Positions 47,011-52,620 of a stretch of DNA of 64,000 bases are shown in pieces. This DNA comes from Victivallis lenta (lineage in GTDB: Bacteria; Verrucomicrobiota; Lentisphaeria; Victivallales; Victivallaceae): assembly GCF_009695545.1 (NCBI RefSeq), contig NZ_VUNS01000002.1, positions 372,001-436,000 of the forward strand, in the 5' to 3' direction. How positions within the stretch are numbered: the stretch's first letter is position 1; every line of letters begins with the position of its first letter. Below the pieces are notes generated by a model. The model saw nothing but the letters and a program-made list of their open reading frames with translations. It did no database searches and was not told where the DNA came from. The position numbers and the translations under genes are program-made.

Positions 47011-49551
47011 TTACGGTTGTTCCGCACCCGTTCGGAAGGCGCGGGGAGAGCGGTGTTCCTTGCGCGGCCTGTTGCTCTCGGCCGGGTCGAGCAGCCGCAG
47101 CTTCTTTTCGCATTGCGGGCAGACCACGAAATCGAGCTCGCGGAGGTTGCCGCAGCCGAGCGAAGTCATGATGCACGGCACGTTTGAGCAGTAGCTTTCC
47201 GGCGCGCAGAAGATGAAGATCAGCCGTGCGGCGATATGGGCGATATCCGCATCAAAACCGACGCTTCCCCGCGACCGCGAAAAGACGCCGCAGTCGCCGG
47301 CTTCACGGCTGCAGCCGTAATAGACGTAACGCAGCGACGGCGACTTGCCGGAGTAAATCGAGTCGGTCAGCAGGTAAAGCACAAGCACAGCGTCCTCCGG
47401 GTAATCGCCCGCCGCGTTCCGGACCGCTCCGGGAATCCGGTCGCAGTCGAACTGATGGCGGCCGTGATCGTAGGACTCCTCGAGCGGCAGCGGCAGCGCG
47501 GGCCGGACGACGCAGTCGATTCCGAGCTTCTTCCGGATCAGTCCGGCGGCGCTGTCGAGCGTCTCTGCCGGAATCTCGCCCAGCGGCTGCAGATAGATTT
47601 TCCGCCCCGGAAAAACAGCGAGGAACTGCCGGACGGGAGCCATTTTCACCCCGGTCTCCTCCTGCCGCACCCGGCCGGGCAGGGACTTGCGCAGAATCGC
47701 CACCGTCCGCTCCAGCAGCTTCCGGTCATTTTCATACAGCCGGTTGTAAAGCGCGCCTCCGCTCCGGCTCCGTTTCCTCTCTTCCTCCCTGAGCTTTTCG
47801 AGAATCCGCAGCGCCTCGGCTTTCCGGCCGGTTTCGCGGTACAGCAGCGCCCGGTGCAGCCGGATTGCCGGCGTTCTGTCGAGATGAACCCGCTCTCCCG
47901 GCTTCGCCTGCGCCGCAATCCGGTCGAGCCAGTCGAGCGCGGATTGCGGAGAAGCGAACTTCCTTTCAAGCGTGAGAAACATCAGCAGCGCATGATAGTT
48001 CCGGAGCGCGCGGAAATTCTTCGCTTGCCGCGCCGTCTCCCAGGCAAGCCGTTCCTCGCCGGCGATGCCGTAGGCGAGAACCGCGCTGGTCTCGTCGCCG
48101 AGCGCCAGATAGAGCCCGGCCCCTTTCACCGGATCGCCCAGAAGGACGGCCAGCTTCGCGCGATGGCGCGGAATCGTTTTGTTCGAAGGATCGAGCTTCT
48201 CCCAGGCGGCGAGACGCTCAGGGGCCTCGGCCGCATGCATGGCGCAGAACGAAAACAGAAAACGCAGCCGCGCGATTCGTTTTGCATACAGCTCCGGCTT
48301 CCGCAGAGAATCCAGGGCGAAGGAGGAAAAATAATAGAGCGCCTCCTCCTGCTGGTCGTTGATCAGATCAGGATGGACGATATAGGAACACTCCCGCCAC
48401 CGGCACCGGTCGGCCCGGCAGTGGCCGGCGAGAAGACGATCATACAGCAGCTCCAGCAGGGTGAGAACCGCCGCATCGTCCTCATGTTTCAGCAGATAAT
48501 AGCTCTCGGCCTGCATGATGATCTGGGCCGTCAGCCCGGTGTTGTAGCGGATGAAAGAGGATTCGGCCCTGATCGTCTCGAGCAGACGGTCCGCTTCACG
48601 CCCGGCCGTACACGGCGTATCCGCGACCGGGACGGCGGCGGATTCCCCGGCCGCAAGCAGAGACAGGGCGAGCTCTCCGCAGCTTTTTTCGAGAAATTCC
48701 GGTTTGACCACCTCCGTGGCTGCGGCGGAGACGATGCCGCTGCCGCAGTCGACCAGCAGGAGATCGATCCGCCTGGCGCCGTCCGGAGCGGCGGTGACGA
48801 CTCCGGTCACAATGCGGTCCGCGCCGAGCAGCCGGCCGATTCCGGCCGCTCCGCCGGAGTCGAGGGCGCCGAGAGAAAGAAGTTTCTGCTCCCTGAGAAG
48901 CCTGAGGATGATGCCGCGTTCGACAAGGGCCTTCAGCCGGCCGTCGGCCAGGAGGGCGCATTCGACCATGCCCGAAAGCGAAGTGTCGGACGGGTTGTCG
49001 ATCTCCGTGACCGCGGTCATAATCGGAATCGGCAGCACGGCCCAGACTTCGCCGCTGCGGTCGCGCGCGGCGCCGTCGGCTTCGGGACGCGGCGCCAGCT
49101 TCAGAAGTTCGCCGATCCGTTCGGCGAGGACGGCGGGTTCGTCGAAATTCCCGGCCGTTTCGACGATGACTTCTCGATGCACTTCGCCGGTGCGTAAGTT
49201 TTCGACCACGAGCTCGGTATTGCCCTCCTGAACGTCGGAAGAGAGCCTCTTCCCGGAAACATTCGCCCCGCCGATCCGCCACTCCGGCTCCGGCATGGCA
49301 TTGAGCCGGGCATGCATGCCCGGCAGCGTCCGTTCGACGCCGAGGGCGATGCCGACGTTCCGCCCGAGGAGCACGCAGTCATAACGCCGCTGCAGCTCGG
49401 CGGAAAGCCGGCTCTGCAGCGACAGCGAACAGTGAGTGAACCAGTAGCCGAGCTGATCCATGAACGGCTCGACGACGATGACCGGCGGTGCGGCGACAGC
49501 CCGGAACACCGGAAAAAACACGAGAAACAAAAGAACGGCAAATCGTTTCAA
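47011..49551 (-). CDS. Exported FlgO/CsgG-like protein fused to a degenerate archaemetzincin domain
   Basis: About 846 aa. From TTG 49551 (GGGGAAG upstream) the protein begins with a signal peptide (LKRFAVLLFLVFFPVFRAVA). Residues ~20-310 contain segments like FlgO/CsgG-type proteins (RLKALVERGIILRLLREQKL, GIGRLLGADRIVTGVV). A helical repeat-like middle (~330-640) follows. The last ~200 residues match archaemetzincin (M54) in IYLQPLGEIPAETLDSAAGL, ALPLPLEESYDHGRHQFDCD and LVLYLLTDSIYSGK. C788-X4-C793-X-M795 and C811-X2-C814 fit the structural zinc site, but the HExxH stretch is replaced by LIFIF. It is probably a non-catalytic relative. Start choice is uncertain (TTG at 49572 possible). Confidence 0.7.
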   Translation of the reverse strand: MKRFAVLLFLVFFPVFRAVAAPPVIVVEPFMDQLGYWFTHCSLSLQSRLSAELQRRYDCVLLGRNVGIALGVERTLPGMHARLNAMPEPEWRIGGANVSGKRLSSDVQEGNTELVVENLRTGEVHREVIVETAGNFDEPAVLAERIGELLKLAPRPEADGAARDRSGEVWAVLPIPIMTAVTEIDNPSDTSLSGMVECALLADGRLKALVERGIILRLLREQKLLSLGALDSGGAAGIGRLLGADRIVTGVVTAAPDGARRIDLLLVDCGSGIVSAAATEVVKPEFLEKSCGELALSLLAAGESAAVPVADTPCTAGREADRLLETIRAESSFIRYNTGLTAQIIMQAESYYLLKHEDDAAVLTLLELLYDRLLAGHCRADRCRWRECSYIVHPDLINDQQEEALYYFSSFALDSLRKPELYAKRIARLRFLFSFCAMHAAEAPERLAAWEKLDPSNKTIPRHRAKLAVLLGDPVKGAGLYLALGDETSAVLAYGIAGEERLAWETARQAKNFRALRNYHALLMFLTLERKFASPQSALDWLDRIAAQAKPGERVHLDRTPAIRLHRALLYRETGRKAEALRILEKLREEERKRSRSGGALYNRLYENDRKLLERTVAILRKSLPGRVRQEETGVKMAPVRQFLAVFPGRKIYLQPLGEIPAETLDSAAGLIRKKLGIDCVVRPALPLPLEESYDHGRHQFDCDRIPGAVRNAAGDYPEDAVLVLYLLTDSIYSGKSPSLRYVYYGCSREAGDCGVFSRSRGSVGFDADIAHIAARLIFIFCAPESYCSNVPCIMTSLGCGNLRELDFVVCPQCEKKLRLLDPAESNRPRKEHRSPRAFRTGAEQP

Positions 49552-49661
49552 AACAGGCTTCCCCGGTTTCAATTCAACTCCGGTGCGATGGAGTATAACA
49601 ATAGCCGCCGCGAAACGGTAAATCAAGCCGGAAAGAAAAAAATGATGCGATTTTCAAATGT

Positions 49662-50432
49662 TTATTCCTGTTTCATCATCTCCTGTTTCAGCCGCCGGTA
49701 ACGTTCCGGCAGCCAGACCGGCTCGCCGGGGACGGGGACAGGAAGGGGACGGAGCCGGAAATCGAACGGGGCGATCAGAATGCGGACCCGCCCGGTTCCG
49801 CAGGACGCCGCCAGCGTGAAAATTTCCTCGATATCGGGGTCGGCGACCGCAATGCAGCCGATGGAGCCGCCGAAACCGTGAAGCATGATGGCCGAACCGA
49901 GACAGCCGGAAGCGCGTCCGTCCCGCCCGGCCGCCTCGATATCCTCCCGGCTCGGATAAGCGATTTTCAGCGCCGCGTGAAACCGGCTGTTCGGATGGAG
50001 CGATTCGATTTCGTAAATCCCCTCCGGCACCTGTCCGTCCCCCTCCTTCAATTTCGGTCCGGCCACACCGCTTGCCGCCCGAATCGGATAGACTTTAATC
50101 AGGCGCCACGATCGGTCAGGGAGAAATTTCCCCTGCAATTCAAGCAGCCTCTCCTCTTTGAGGGCGATGAGACGCAAAGCATCCGGTGTCCGATTGCCGG
50201 GAAGCTGCAGCCGTTCGAGAGCGGCCGGCCCGAATTCCCCGATCCGGTCGGCAACGGAAAACTGAAACAGGCGGCCGATGCTGAAATTCCAGATGCGCCG
50301 CCGGCATGACTTCGGGCCGAAAAGGACGATTGCCATGATGAGAAAAAACAGAGCATAGCAGAAAAACCGGAAATATCGCATCCGACTTTTCCGGCGGTCT
50401 CCCGGATCGTATTTCCTGTGAATCGCGGTCAT
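49662..50432 (-). CDS. L,D-transpeptidase (YkuD/YafK-like)
   Basis: A 256-aa membrane-anchored enzyme acting on peptidoglycan. A single N-terminal anchor lies at residues ~18-40 (RYFRFFCYALFFLIMAIVLF). The catalytic domain starts with LIKVYPIRAASGV and KLKEGDGQVPEGIYEIESLH, and ends in IMLHGFGGSIGCIAV, the HG-x-S-x-GC signature with catalytic Cys and His. YafK-type enzymes cross-link peptidoglycan or attach/detach lipoproteins. ATG 50432 lies about 15 bases after the predicted transcription start; ATG 50381 is an alternative. It is divergent from the pentapeptide gene. Confidence 0.88.
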   Translation of the reverse strand: MTAIHRKYDPGDRRKSRMRYFRFFCYALFFLIMAIVLFGPKSCRRRIWNFSIGRLFQFSVADRIGEFGPAALERLQLPGNRTPDALRLIALKEERLLELQGKFLPDRSWRLIKVYPIRAASGVAGPKLKEGDGQVPEGIYEIESLHPNSRFHAALKIAYPSREDIEAAGRDGRASGCLGSAIMLHGFGGSIGCIAVADPDIEEIFTLAASCGTGRVRILIAPFDFRLRPLPVPVPGEPVWLPERYRRLKQEMMKQE

Positions 50433-50447
50433 ATTTCCCACCGTCTT

Positions 50448-51237: not shown

Positions 51238-51560
51238 CCCGGCATAAGACCGGTCAGTTCCGTTGCGGCCGGCACCGCCGGAAACTTGACAAACCTTTCG
51301 GACCTGCTATATTATTTCTTAGATGGGACGGGCGGCATTGCCGCTTTGTTGCATAGAGGAAAGCCGTTATGGAGAAGAGGAGGTGAAAAGCGATCAATAA
51401 ATCAGTTTCCGGCACGTTTCGCTCCAGATGTTTTTCAGACAGATAAATGAAAAACTTAAAGGAAGAGCGTGCGGCGGCGGGAGCCCGGAATACGGAATTC
51501 CCCGTCCCCGTTCCCGCCCGAAGTCGTATTGCAAATGAGGAAAAAAGAAGAGGTGGAGTT
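51238..51560 (+). other. Promoter and long leader of the META-lipoprotein operon
   Basis: TTGACA (51286-51291) and TATATT (51308-51313), spacer 16, are a strong promoter, yet the first lipoprotein begins only at 51561. The ~240-base leader holds a small hairpin near 51332-51343 and a five-codon ORF (ATG 51369, MEKRR, stop 51386) with a good ribosome-binding site. Its own codons contain AGGAGGTGA, an almost ideal Shine-Dalgarno sequence without a following start. No known riboswitch was recognised. Confidence 0.5.
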
Positions 51561-52001
51561 ATGAAATTCATGAAATCTGGCATTTTGAGTGCGGCAGTCG
51601 GAATTCTCATCCTGGCCGGAGGCTGCGCTTCCGACGCGGCGCTGAAGGAGACGGTCTGGACGCCGGTCAAGCTTGAAAACCAGGGCACGGTCGGCCTGGT
51701 TCAGGATCAGCCGGTCTGGTTCTCGGTCGGCAGCGACAACAAGGTCACCGGCAACGGCGGCGTCAACACGATCATCGGAACCGCCGCAGTCGCCGAAGAC
51801 GGCAAGCTTGTCTTCGAGCCGCTGGCCACAACCCGGAAAGCCGGTCCGAATCTCGCCTACGAGGCGATTTTCCTGAACGCGCTGAATGCGACGCGCACGT
51901 ATCAGATCAAGGAAGAGACGCTTCAGGTCTTCGACAAAGGCGGCAATCTGCTGGCGACCTTCACCGTCGGGCCGGAGTCTCTGACCAAAGAGAAGGAATA
52001 A
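51561..52001 (+). CDS. META-domain-like lipoprotein 1
   Basis: A 146-aa lipoprotein. The signal (KSGILSAAVGILILAGGC) ends in a lipobox with Cys at about 23. The mature part resembles a META/HslJ-type small beta-barrel: ALKETVWTPVKLENQG, GNGGVNTIIGTA, and LQVFDKGGNLLATF. Such domains appear in secreted or outer-membrane stress-related proteins with unknown biochemistry. AGAGGTGGAG precedes ATG 51561. It is a paralogue of the gene 180 bases downstream, with a GC-rich hairpin between them. Confidence 0.82.
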   Translation: MKFMKSGILSAAVGILILAGGCASDAALKETVWTPVKLENQGTVGLVQDQPVWFSVGSDNKVTGNGGVNTIIGTAAVAEDGKLVFEPLATTRKAGPNLAYEAIFLNALNATRTYQIKEETLQVFDKGGNLLATFTVGPESLTKEKE

Positions 52002-52048: not shown

Positions 52049-52182
52049 AAAGCTCCGGTCATGCAGACCGGGTACAATTCGTCAATTCAAACCGGCCGGG
52101 CGGTTCCGGCGGCGGCGTGAATGGAAAATCCCCGCCCCGCAGGCCTCCCGGCCGTGGTAACACAGCAGTGAAAGGACTGAAA

Positions 52183-52620
52183 ATGAAGTTCAAAAAAACC
52201 GGCGGCTTTCTGGCCGCCCTCGGCGCGGCAATCCTGATCGGCGGCTGCGCCACGGCACCGCTCAAGAACACGGTATGGGTTCCGGAAAAGCTCGACAACC
52301 AGGGCGACGTGAAACTCATCGAACCGACTCCGGTCTGGTTCGAGATCTACGAAACCGGCAAGGTGTTCGGCCACGGCGGCGTGAACCGCTTCTCGTCGCA
52401 GGCGACCATCGACCCGGAAAAGGGGGAACTCTCGTTCGCTCCCGGAGCCGCCACGCTGATGGCGGGCCCGAATCTCGGCTATGAGTCGAAATTCCTCGAA
52501 ACGATGAATGCGGTCCGCCGTTATTCCATCAGCGGGGACACCCTGACCGTCTATGACGCCAACGGCAAGGAGCTCGCAACCTTCAAGGCCGGTTCGGCCG
52601 AATTGAAAACTGCGAAATGA
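52183..52620 (+). CDS. META-domain-like lipoprotein 2
   Basis: A 145-aa lipoprotein with signal KKTGGFLAALGAAILIGGC and lipobox Cys at about 22. The mature domain parallels the previous gene: PLKNTVWVPEKLDNQGDVKL, FGHGGVNRFSS, AGPNLGYESKFLETMNAV, LTVYDANGKELATF. The gene pair probably arose by duplication. AAAGGAC lies upstream of ATG 52183. Its stop overlaps the start of the Xer recombinase (ATGA), so the recombinase is translated by coupling from this gene. Confidence 0.82.
   Translation: MKFKKTGGFLAALGAAILIGGCATAPLKNTVWVPEKLDNQGDVKLIEPTPVWFEIYETGKVFGHGGVNRFSSQATIDPEKGELSFAPGAATLMAGPNLGYESKFLETMNAVRRYSISGDTLTVYDANGKELATFKAGSAELKTAK

Follow-up and report, generated by a model that had tools for sequence, protein, structure and literature searches.

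An archaemetzincin-derived domain lacking its catalytic site, fused to LpoB/CsgG-like and TPR regions in Victivallis lenta and its relatives

Archaemetzincins (MEROPS M54, PF07998, NF033823) are an ancient and widely shared protease family whose function is poorly known, represented structurally by AfAmzA (4axq/3zvs) and MkAmzA (2x7m). In the archaeal AfAmzA, zinc is held by a site of four cysteines (Cys4) that has been assigned a structural role; the Cys4 mutant precipitated (PMC3427221). Catalytically dead archaemetzincin-like domains are already known as a kind from CarG of Myxococcus xanthus, an inactive, zinc-bound homologue that is the obligate partner of the translationally coupled protein CarD (PMC3427221, PMC8156234); all four cysteines of CarG are needed (PMC3427221), and the protein, with its zinc-bound His/Cys segment, works only in complex with CarD (PMC8156234).

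Here, we describe a gene in a 64,000-nucleotide stretch of V. lenta DNA (the window) whose product ends in a domain collinear with archaemetzincins. This domain shares with them an N-terminal IYxQPLG core, the Ser of the third strand and the zinc-finger-like cluster C-x4-C-x-M-x15/16-C-x2-C; unlike them, it has no HExxHxxGxxH motif, falls below the family cut-offs, is predicted to be exported and lies behind LpoB/CsgG-type and TPR regions. Compared by published description, the likeness to CarG would consist in the non-catalytic use of an archaemetzincin-like zinc domain and in a co-encoded partner, although CarG keeps HQxxHxxExxH and two zincs and is a transcription factor, whereas the fusion family has lost all catalytic ligands and appears to be exported; no CarD-like partner was seen among the neighbouring genes examined. 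By this analogy, CarG is the best precedent for a non-cutting archaemetzincin module. The closest motif-intact relatives in the phylum are exported M54 proteins of Verrucomicrobiota (300-340 aa, HExxHxxGxxHC), which have an intact catalytic motif and are unfused. We found no paper on dead M54 domains in Verrucomicrobiota in the open-access literature, and as far as that literature shows, the combination of complete ligand loss, predicted export and LpoB/CsgG plus TPR fusion with a linked partner is new.

Domain order and relation to archaemetzincins

The gene (Table 1) is real: five related genomes have orthologs over its full length, which measure 810-817 aa and are about 31% identical. A start at 49626 was disfavoured, given that the 49551 start yields an N-terminal signal peptide as in the orthologs; the corresponding stretch, MKRFAVLLFLVFFPVFRAVAA, is signal-peptide-like, and inspection by eye revealed no clear lipobox at the signal-peptide ends of the window protein and its orthologs.

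Table 1. Features of the fusion gene and its upstream neighbour, in positions of the window
Feature	Residues	Coordinates	Strand	Basis or remark
Whole gene: predicted exported LpoB/CsgG-like x2 + TPR + pseudo-archaemetzincin protein, 846 aa; TTG start at 49551, stop at 47011	1-846	47011..49551	-	Orthologs 31% identical over full length
Signal-peptide-like N-terminus, TTG start	1-21	49489..49551	-	Sequence; hydrophobic N-terminus kept in orthologs
N1, first LpoB/CsgG-type alpha/beta domain, divergent	22-158	49078..49488	-	hhalign against N2; TolB and PelC fold matches of the whole model
N2, second LpoB/CsgG-type domain	165-305	48637..49059	-	Pfam CsgG match; hhalign to the partner's LpoB-like domain
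TPR-like alpha solenoid	310-625	47677..48624	-	Weak Pfam TPR; all-helical model and TPR fold matches; clear TPRs in relatives
Pseudo-archaemetzincin (M54) domain	649-818	47098..47607	-	Profile, NCBIfam and predicted-fold matches
Erased catalytic site LIFIFCAPESY, at the HExxHxxGxxH position of active M54	777-787	47191..47223	-	Sequence, family alignment
Cys788, predicted structural zinc ligand 1	788	47188..47190	-	Invariant in 13/13 members
Cys793, predicted structural zinc ligand 2, followed by I-M (Met-turn position)	793	47173..47175	-	Invariant
Cys811, predicted structural zinc ligand 3	811	47119..47121	-	Invariant
Cys814, predicted structural zinc ligand 4	814	47110..47112	-	Invariant
YkuD (L,D-transpeptidase) gene, upstream, about 110 bp away		49662..50441	-	Not conserved beside orthologs

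An earlier note on this DNA had described the N-terminal part as a FlgO/CsgG-like exported region. The assignment to the CsgG-type fold group stands, but the region is better described as a tandem of LpoB/CsgG/PelC-type domains, and the TPR solenoid had been missed. The Pfam CsgG model gives 18.4 bits for the window protein, just under its cut-off of 20.8, and 21.1 bits, over the cut-off, for an ortholog; one fusion protein has LpoB as its top-scoring Pfam family, and the G408 fusion protein reaches 25.6 bits with this model (cut-off 22.3). N1 aligns with N2 (hhalign 75%, P 2.4e-5), and N2 aligns more strongly with the LpoB-like domain of the partner gene product described below (96.9%, P 1.6e-10). 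On these profile comparisons, N1 and N2 are tandem copies of one LpoB/CsgG/PelC-type domain. A fold search with the full-length model returned matches to TPR proteins, TolB and PelC, all at E of 0.001 or more; those to TolB and PelC (E about 0.004-0.02) suggest that the modelled N1 and N2 belong to this fold group too. The TPR assignment, weak by Pfam in the window protein, exceeds the cut-off in a relative. The LpoB/CsgG/PelC/TolB N-terminal domain superfamily, which includes FlgO, thus resembles N1, N2 and the partner in fold and weakly in sequence; compared with it, the fusion protein has no lipobox that we could see, has the domain in duplicate, and joins it to TPR and pseudo-M54 regions.

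For the C-terminal domain, a plain Pfam scan detected no Peptidase_M54 match at E<=1 in the window protein or in 12 family members, so the search that the earlier note had proposed as a check was negative, and a single-sequence test alone would have wrongly rejected homology to M54. Profiles tell otherwise: the similarity to M54 blocks claimed in that note was recovered at hhalign 97-99%, against less than 1% for shuffled alignments. Specifically, the family alignment of the C-terminal domain matched 16 HExxH-bearing M54 proteins from the phylum collinearly over 169 columns (97.2%, P 2.8e-11). The window sequence alone gave 97.2%, the set without the window 95.7% and a single divergent ortholog 56%, whereas the controls (20 column shuffles, the reversed alignment and other domains of the protein) gave at most 0.4%; with 13 fusion members, the value was 98.8% (P 4e-17). 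A profile of 12 family members, all without the catalytic motif, searched against all PDB sequences found 4axq (1.4e-9), 3zvs (2.4e-9), 2x7m (4.1e-5) and 3lmc (0.044), all of them archaemetzincin entries, and then noise; the same profile picked out an HExxH-bearing M54 protein in genome G428 at 6e-9. The NCBIfam archaemetzincin model NF033823 matched one paralog end to end (E 4.3e-11), at 43 bits against a cut-off of 145, and did not match the window protein.

The structure of the domain was predicted from family members only, with no M54 sequences included. The model is of low confidence (pLDDT 56, pTM 0.63), with the zinc-cluster region among its weakest parts, and in a Foldseek search of the PDB it had only four matches with E<0.001, all of them archaemetzincins; the prediction thus matches an archaemetzincin fold and not an unrelated zinc ribbon. 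Below the archaemetzincins ranked many other metzincins, including chains of ADAM22. Pseudo-metalloproteases of the ADAM22 type have a metzincin fold without catalysis and are used for ligand binding; they are eukaryotic adamalysins with no Cys4 zinc finger, and their resemblance to the present domain would be a functional analogy only. The C-terminal domain is homologous to M54 archaemetzincins, a relation visible by profiles or, for one paralog, by NF033823.

The catalytic position and the Cys4 cluster

In the window protein, the region reads LIFIFCAPESY-C788-SNVP-C793-I-M-x15-C811-PQ-C814, and the segment aligned to HExxHxxGxxH contains no His, which bears out the proposal that LIFIFCAPES occupies the catalytic position of a dead enzyme. 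We aligned the 13 fusion members with 22 HExxH-bearing M54 proteins: all 22 of the latter have the full set of three His and one Glu, whereas none of the 13 fusion members has His at any of the three ligand positions, and the HExxHxxGxxH zinc site is absent throughout the family. A domain without the catalytic motif is classed in M54 by fold and homology, not as a peptidase.

The structural zinc pattern C-X4-C-X-M-X15-C-X2-C is present in the window exactly as had been described. Its four Cys occur in all 13 members, the M54 pattern being C-x4-C-x-M-x(15-17)-C-x2-C, and account for four of the seven invariant columns in the 12-member alignment, the others being Y, P and P. Judged from these alignments, catalytic loss with retention of Cys4 is a property of the family and not a quirk of the window's genome. 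We infer that the family Cys4 cluster binds zinc, although it could instead form disulfides in an oxidising periplasm.

An alternative that we regard as unlikely would have the C-terminal domain sense redox state or metal, its periplasmic Cys4 toggling between zinc-bound and disulfide states and signalling via the TPR/LpoB-like part. The cysteine cluster is indeed the most constrained feature of the domain, and an oxidation switch for the archaemetzincin Cys4 has been raised as speculation (PMC3427221), but the same study judged the AfAmzA site structural from its precipitating mutant, and ordinary exported M54 proteins have the same cluster, so a switch is not required to explain it.

Distribution, partner gene and neighbourhood

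The earlier note had suggested surveying the fusion across related genomes. The survey was positive within the same order only, where 10 of 137 genomes, across three families, carry the fusion; the proteins are longer outside the window's family. In G277, three tandem pseudo-M54 paralogs (L082:4640-14874) lie beside an LpoB/CsgG-like partner, one with a C-terminal PA14 domain, one with an N-terminal CBM9 and one with a C-terminal CBM9, additions that suggest that these paralogs act on polysaccharide or at the cell surface. The G277 locus also contains a divergent gene that by eye resembles an alpha-2-macroglobulin family protein.

The partner gene encodes a second, predicted exported LpoB/CsgG-like protein of about 320-340 aa (Pfam LpoB 3.6e-10, its best Pfam match; NCBIfam LpoB 9.4e-8). 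It adjoins the fusion or sits one gene off in nine of the ten fusion genomes; within the window's family, the two are separated by a 300-aa TPR gene, and at one locus (L083 of G408), the partner and fusion reading frames share 4 bases. Partner relatives at E<1e-90 were found in exactly the nine other fusion genomes, and G356 adds one partial match (E 4.8e-44), which runs up to the edge of a contig. The partner was not found in the window's genome (99.9% complete), the sole fusion carrier without it. Because the partner is absent there and the fusion follows a YkuD gene instead, the window copy is probably a relocated or stripped-down version. Whatever its role, this copy must act by itself or together with another component.

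The YkuD gene was also considered as a conserved partner and rejected, as it is not next to the orthologs. Further along the window, at 51447-52001 and 52117-52620 (+), there is a tandem pair of small lipoprotein-like genes that clearly resemble each other (CASDAALKETVWTPVKLENQG / CATAPLKNTVWVPEKLDNQG) and by eye are probably META/HslJ-like duplicates.

In a further reading, to which we assign a rather low probability, the protein is a cell-wall regulator: its LpoB-like domains would regulate peptidoglycan synthesis, and the pseudo-protease would bind peptidoglycan peptides. The LpoB matches of the partner and of one fusion protein, together with the YkuD gene directly upstream in the window, are consistent with such a role, but YkuD does not accompany the orthologs, and the LpoB/CsgG/PelC/TolB-N fold, for which CsgG, PelC and TolB were also matched, serves many envelope processes.

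Selection, origin and proposed function

The former catalytic segment varies in length and sequence among the 13 members, so that the exact alignment there is uncertain and no replacement site is conserved. Glu stands at the catalytic-Glu column in only 2 of 13 members, without ligands. Only four members, the window among them, retain the Met of the Met-turn, and these form part of the window's subgroup. That the domain is still a hydrolase, with non-canonical residues replacing HExxH, is therefore very unlikely: some conserved non-Cys positions persist (Y, Q, P, S), but no conserved His, Glu or Asp takes the place of the ligands, the segment itself varies, and the Met-turn Met is gone outside one subgroup.

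Among the orthologs at L047-L049, the pseudo-M54 region has a dN/dS of 0.07-0.08, similar to that of the other domains. These values are rough, since dS approaches saturation in the wider pairs, and the near-identical pair L047/L051 has diverged too little to be informative. Between the window protein and the L047 ortholog, identity is 32% in the pseudo-M54 domain, 37-38% in N1/N2 and 24% in the TPR region. With a dN/dS of about 0.08, the pseudo-M54 domain shows purifying selection. Were it instead a functionless remnant in decay that travels with the rest of the gene, the loss of all catalytic residues and the divergent sequence would fit, but this is the least probable of the readings considered, given a dN/dS equal to that of the other domains, an ortholog identity near that of the N-terminal domains and a Cys4 cluster invariant across deep divergence.

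In a maximum-likelihood tree, whose root is arbitrary and whose branches are long, the 13 fusions form one clade (support 98/92), group with the exported 300-340 aa HExxH-bearing M54 proteins (95/80) and are separate from 14 other dead M54 domains. The earlier note had considered fusion to a signal peptide and an envelope domain unexpected for an archaemetzincin; export in itself is not unusual in the phylum, where HExxH-bearing M54 proteins are often 300-340 aa long with signal-peptide-like N-termini. From the tree, at least two losses of catalysis among the M54 proteins of the phylum are likely, although not proven. Fusions with an intact HExxH, as intermediates, were not found among 137 genomes of the order, 198 of the class and 388 of the phylum, and the M54 frames with extra regions (L103, L107, L121 and L122) are dead as well.

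More widely, M54 domains without HExxH occur in 14 of the 34 Verrucomicrobiota genomes with an M54 match, the window's genome excluded (G123, G178, G184, G190, G211, G224, G259, G290, G294, G327, G365, G371, G397 and G407). Among the HExxH-less loci (L103, L105, L109, L112-L122, and L107 in G221), most keep Cys4; some encode small proteins (about 200-230 aa), apparently exported, in which GxxxGxxxC replaces the catalytic helix, others are fused to TPR-like regions, and L105 lacks the Cys too. In the window's own genome, the M54-profile search gave a sole match, below the cut-off, to a distinct HExxHxxGxxH metzincin-like protein (L025:4181-9952, -); this 1923-aa open reading frame has an N-terminal HEAGHLLGESH motif followed by long GGG-rich repeats and is probably a surface protein.

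We favour, with reasonable though not strong confidence, the view that the gene encodes an exported modular protein whose M54-derived C-terminal domain has been kept as a folded, Cys4-zinc-stabilised, non-cutting module for binding or assembly, in line with the zinc-dependent binding or assembly module that the earlier note had suggested. Sequence supports this view through the homology to M54, the absence of HExxHxxGxxH from 13/13 members, the retention of Cys4, the domain order, purifying selection and the partner in 9/10 genomes. On this view, every catalytic zinc ligand was lost in the ancestor of the fusion family and the protein is exported to the periplasm or the cell surface, where the Cys4 cluster would bind zinc and hold the C-terminal domain folded. 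The tandem LpoB/CsgG domains and the TPR solenoid would dock the pseudo-protease on envelope components as well as on the co-encoded partner, and the cleft or surface of the pseudo-protease might hold a protein or peptide ligand uncleaved, as CarG holds CarD. A broader proposal, which we put forward only tentatively and consider somewhat doubtful, is that in Verrucomicrobiota exported archaemetzincins have repeatedly become pseudo-proteases, in at least two lineages including the fusion, and that these now make up a broad class whose members keep only the Cys4 knuckle and the fold and serve as binding or assembly modules of an undescribed envelope complex around the co-encoded LpoB/CsgG-like protein.

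Because 14 of 34 genomes have HExxH-less domains, an M54 annotation in Verrucomicrobiota cannot be taken to mean 'protease'. An invariant zinc cluster without a catalytic site is a natural experiment that parts the two halves of the fold, and the fusion lineage allows a clear-cut test of how the scaffold functions once catalysis is gone. In this lineage, a protease seems to have been taken over during evolution for a role that involves no cutting and is probably one of binding.
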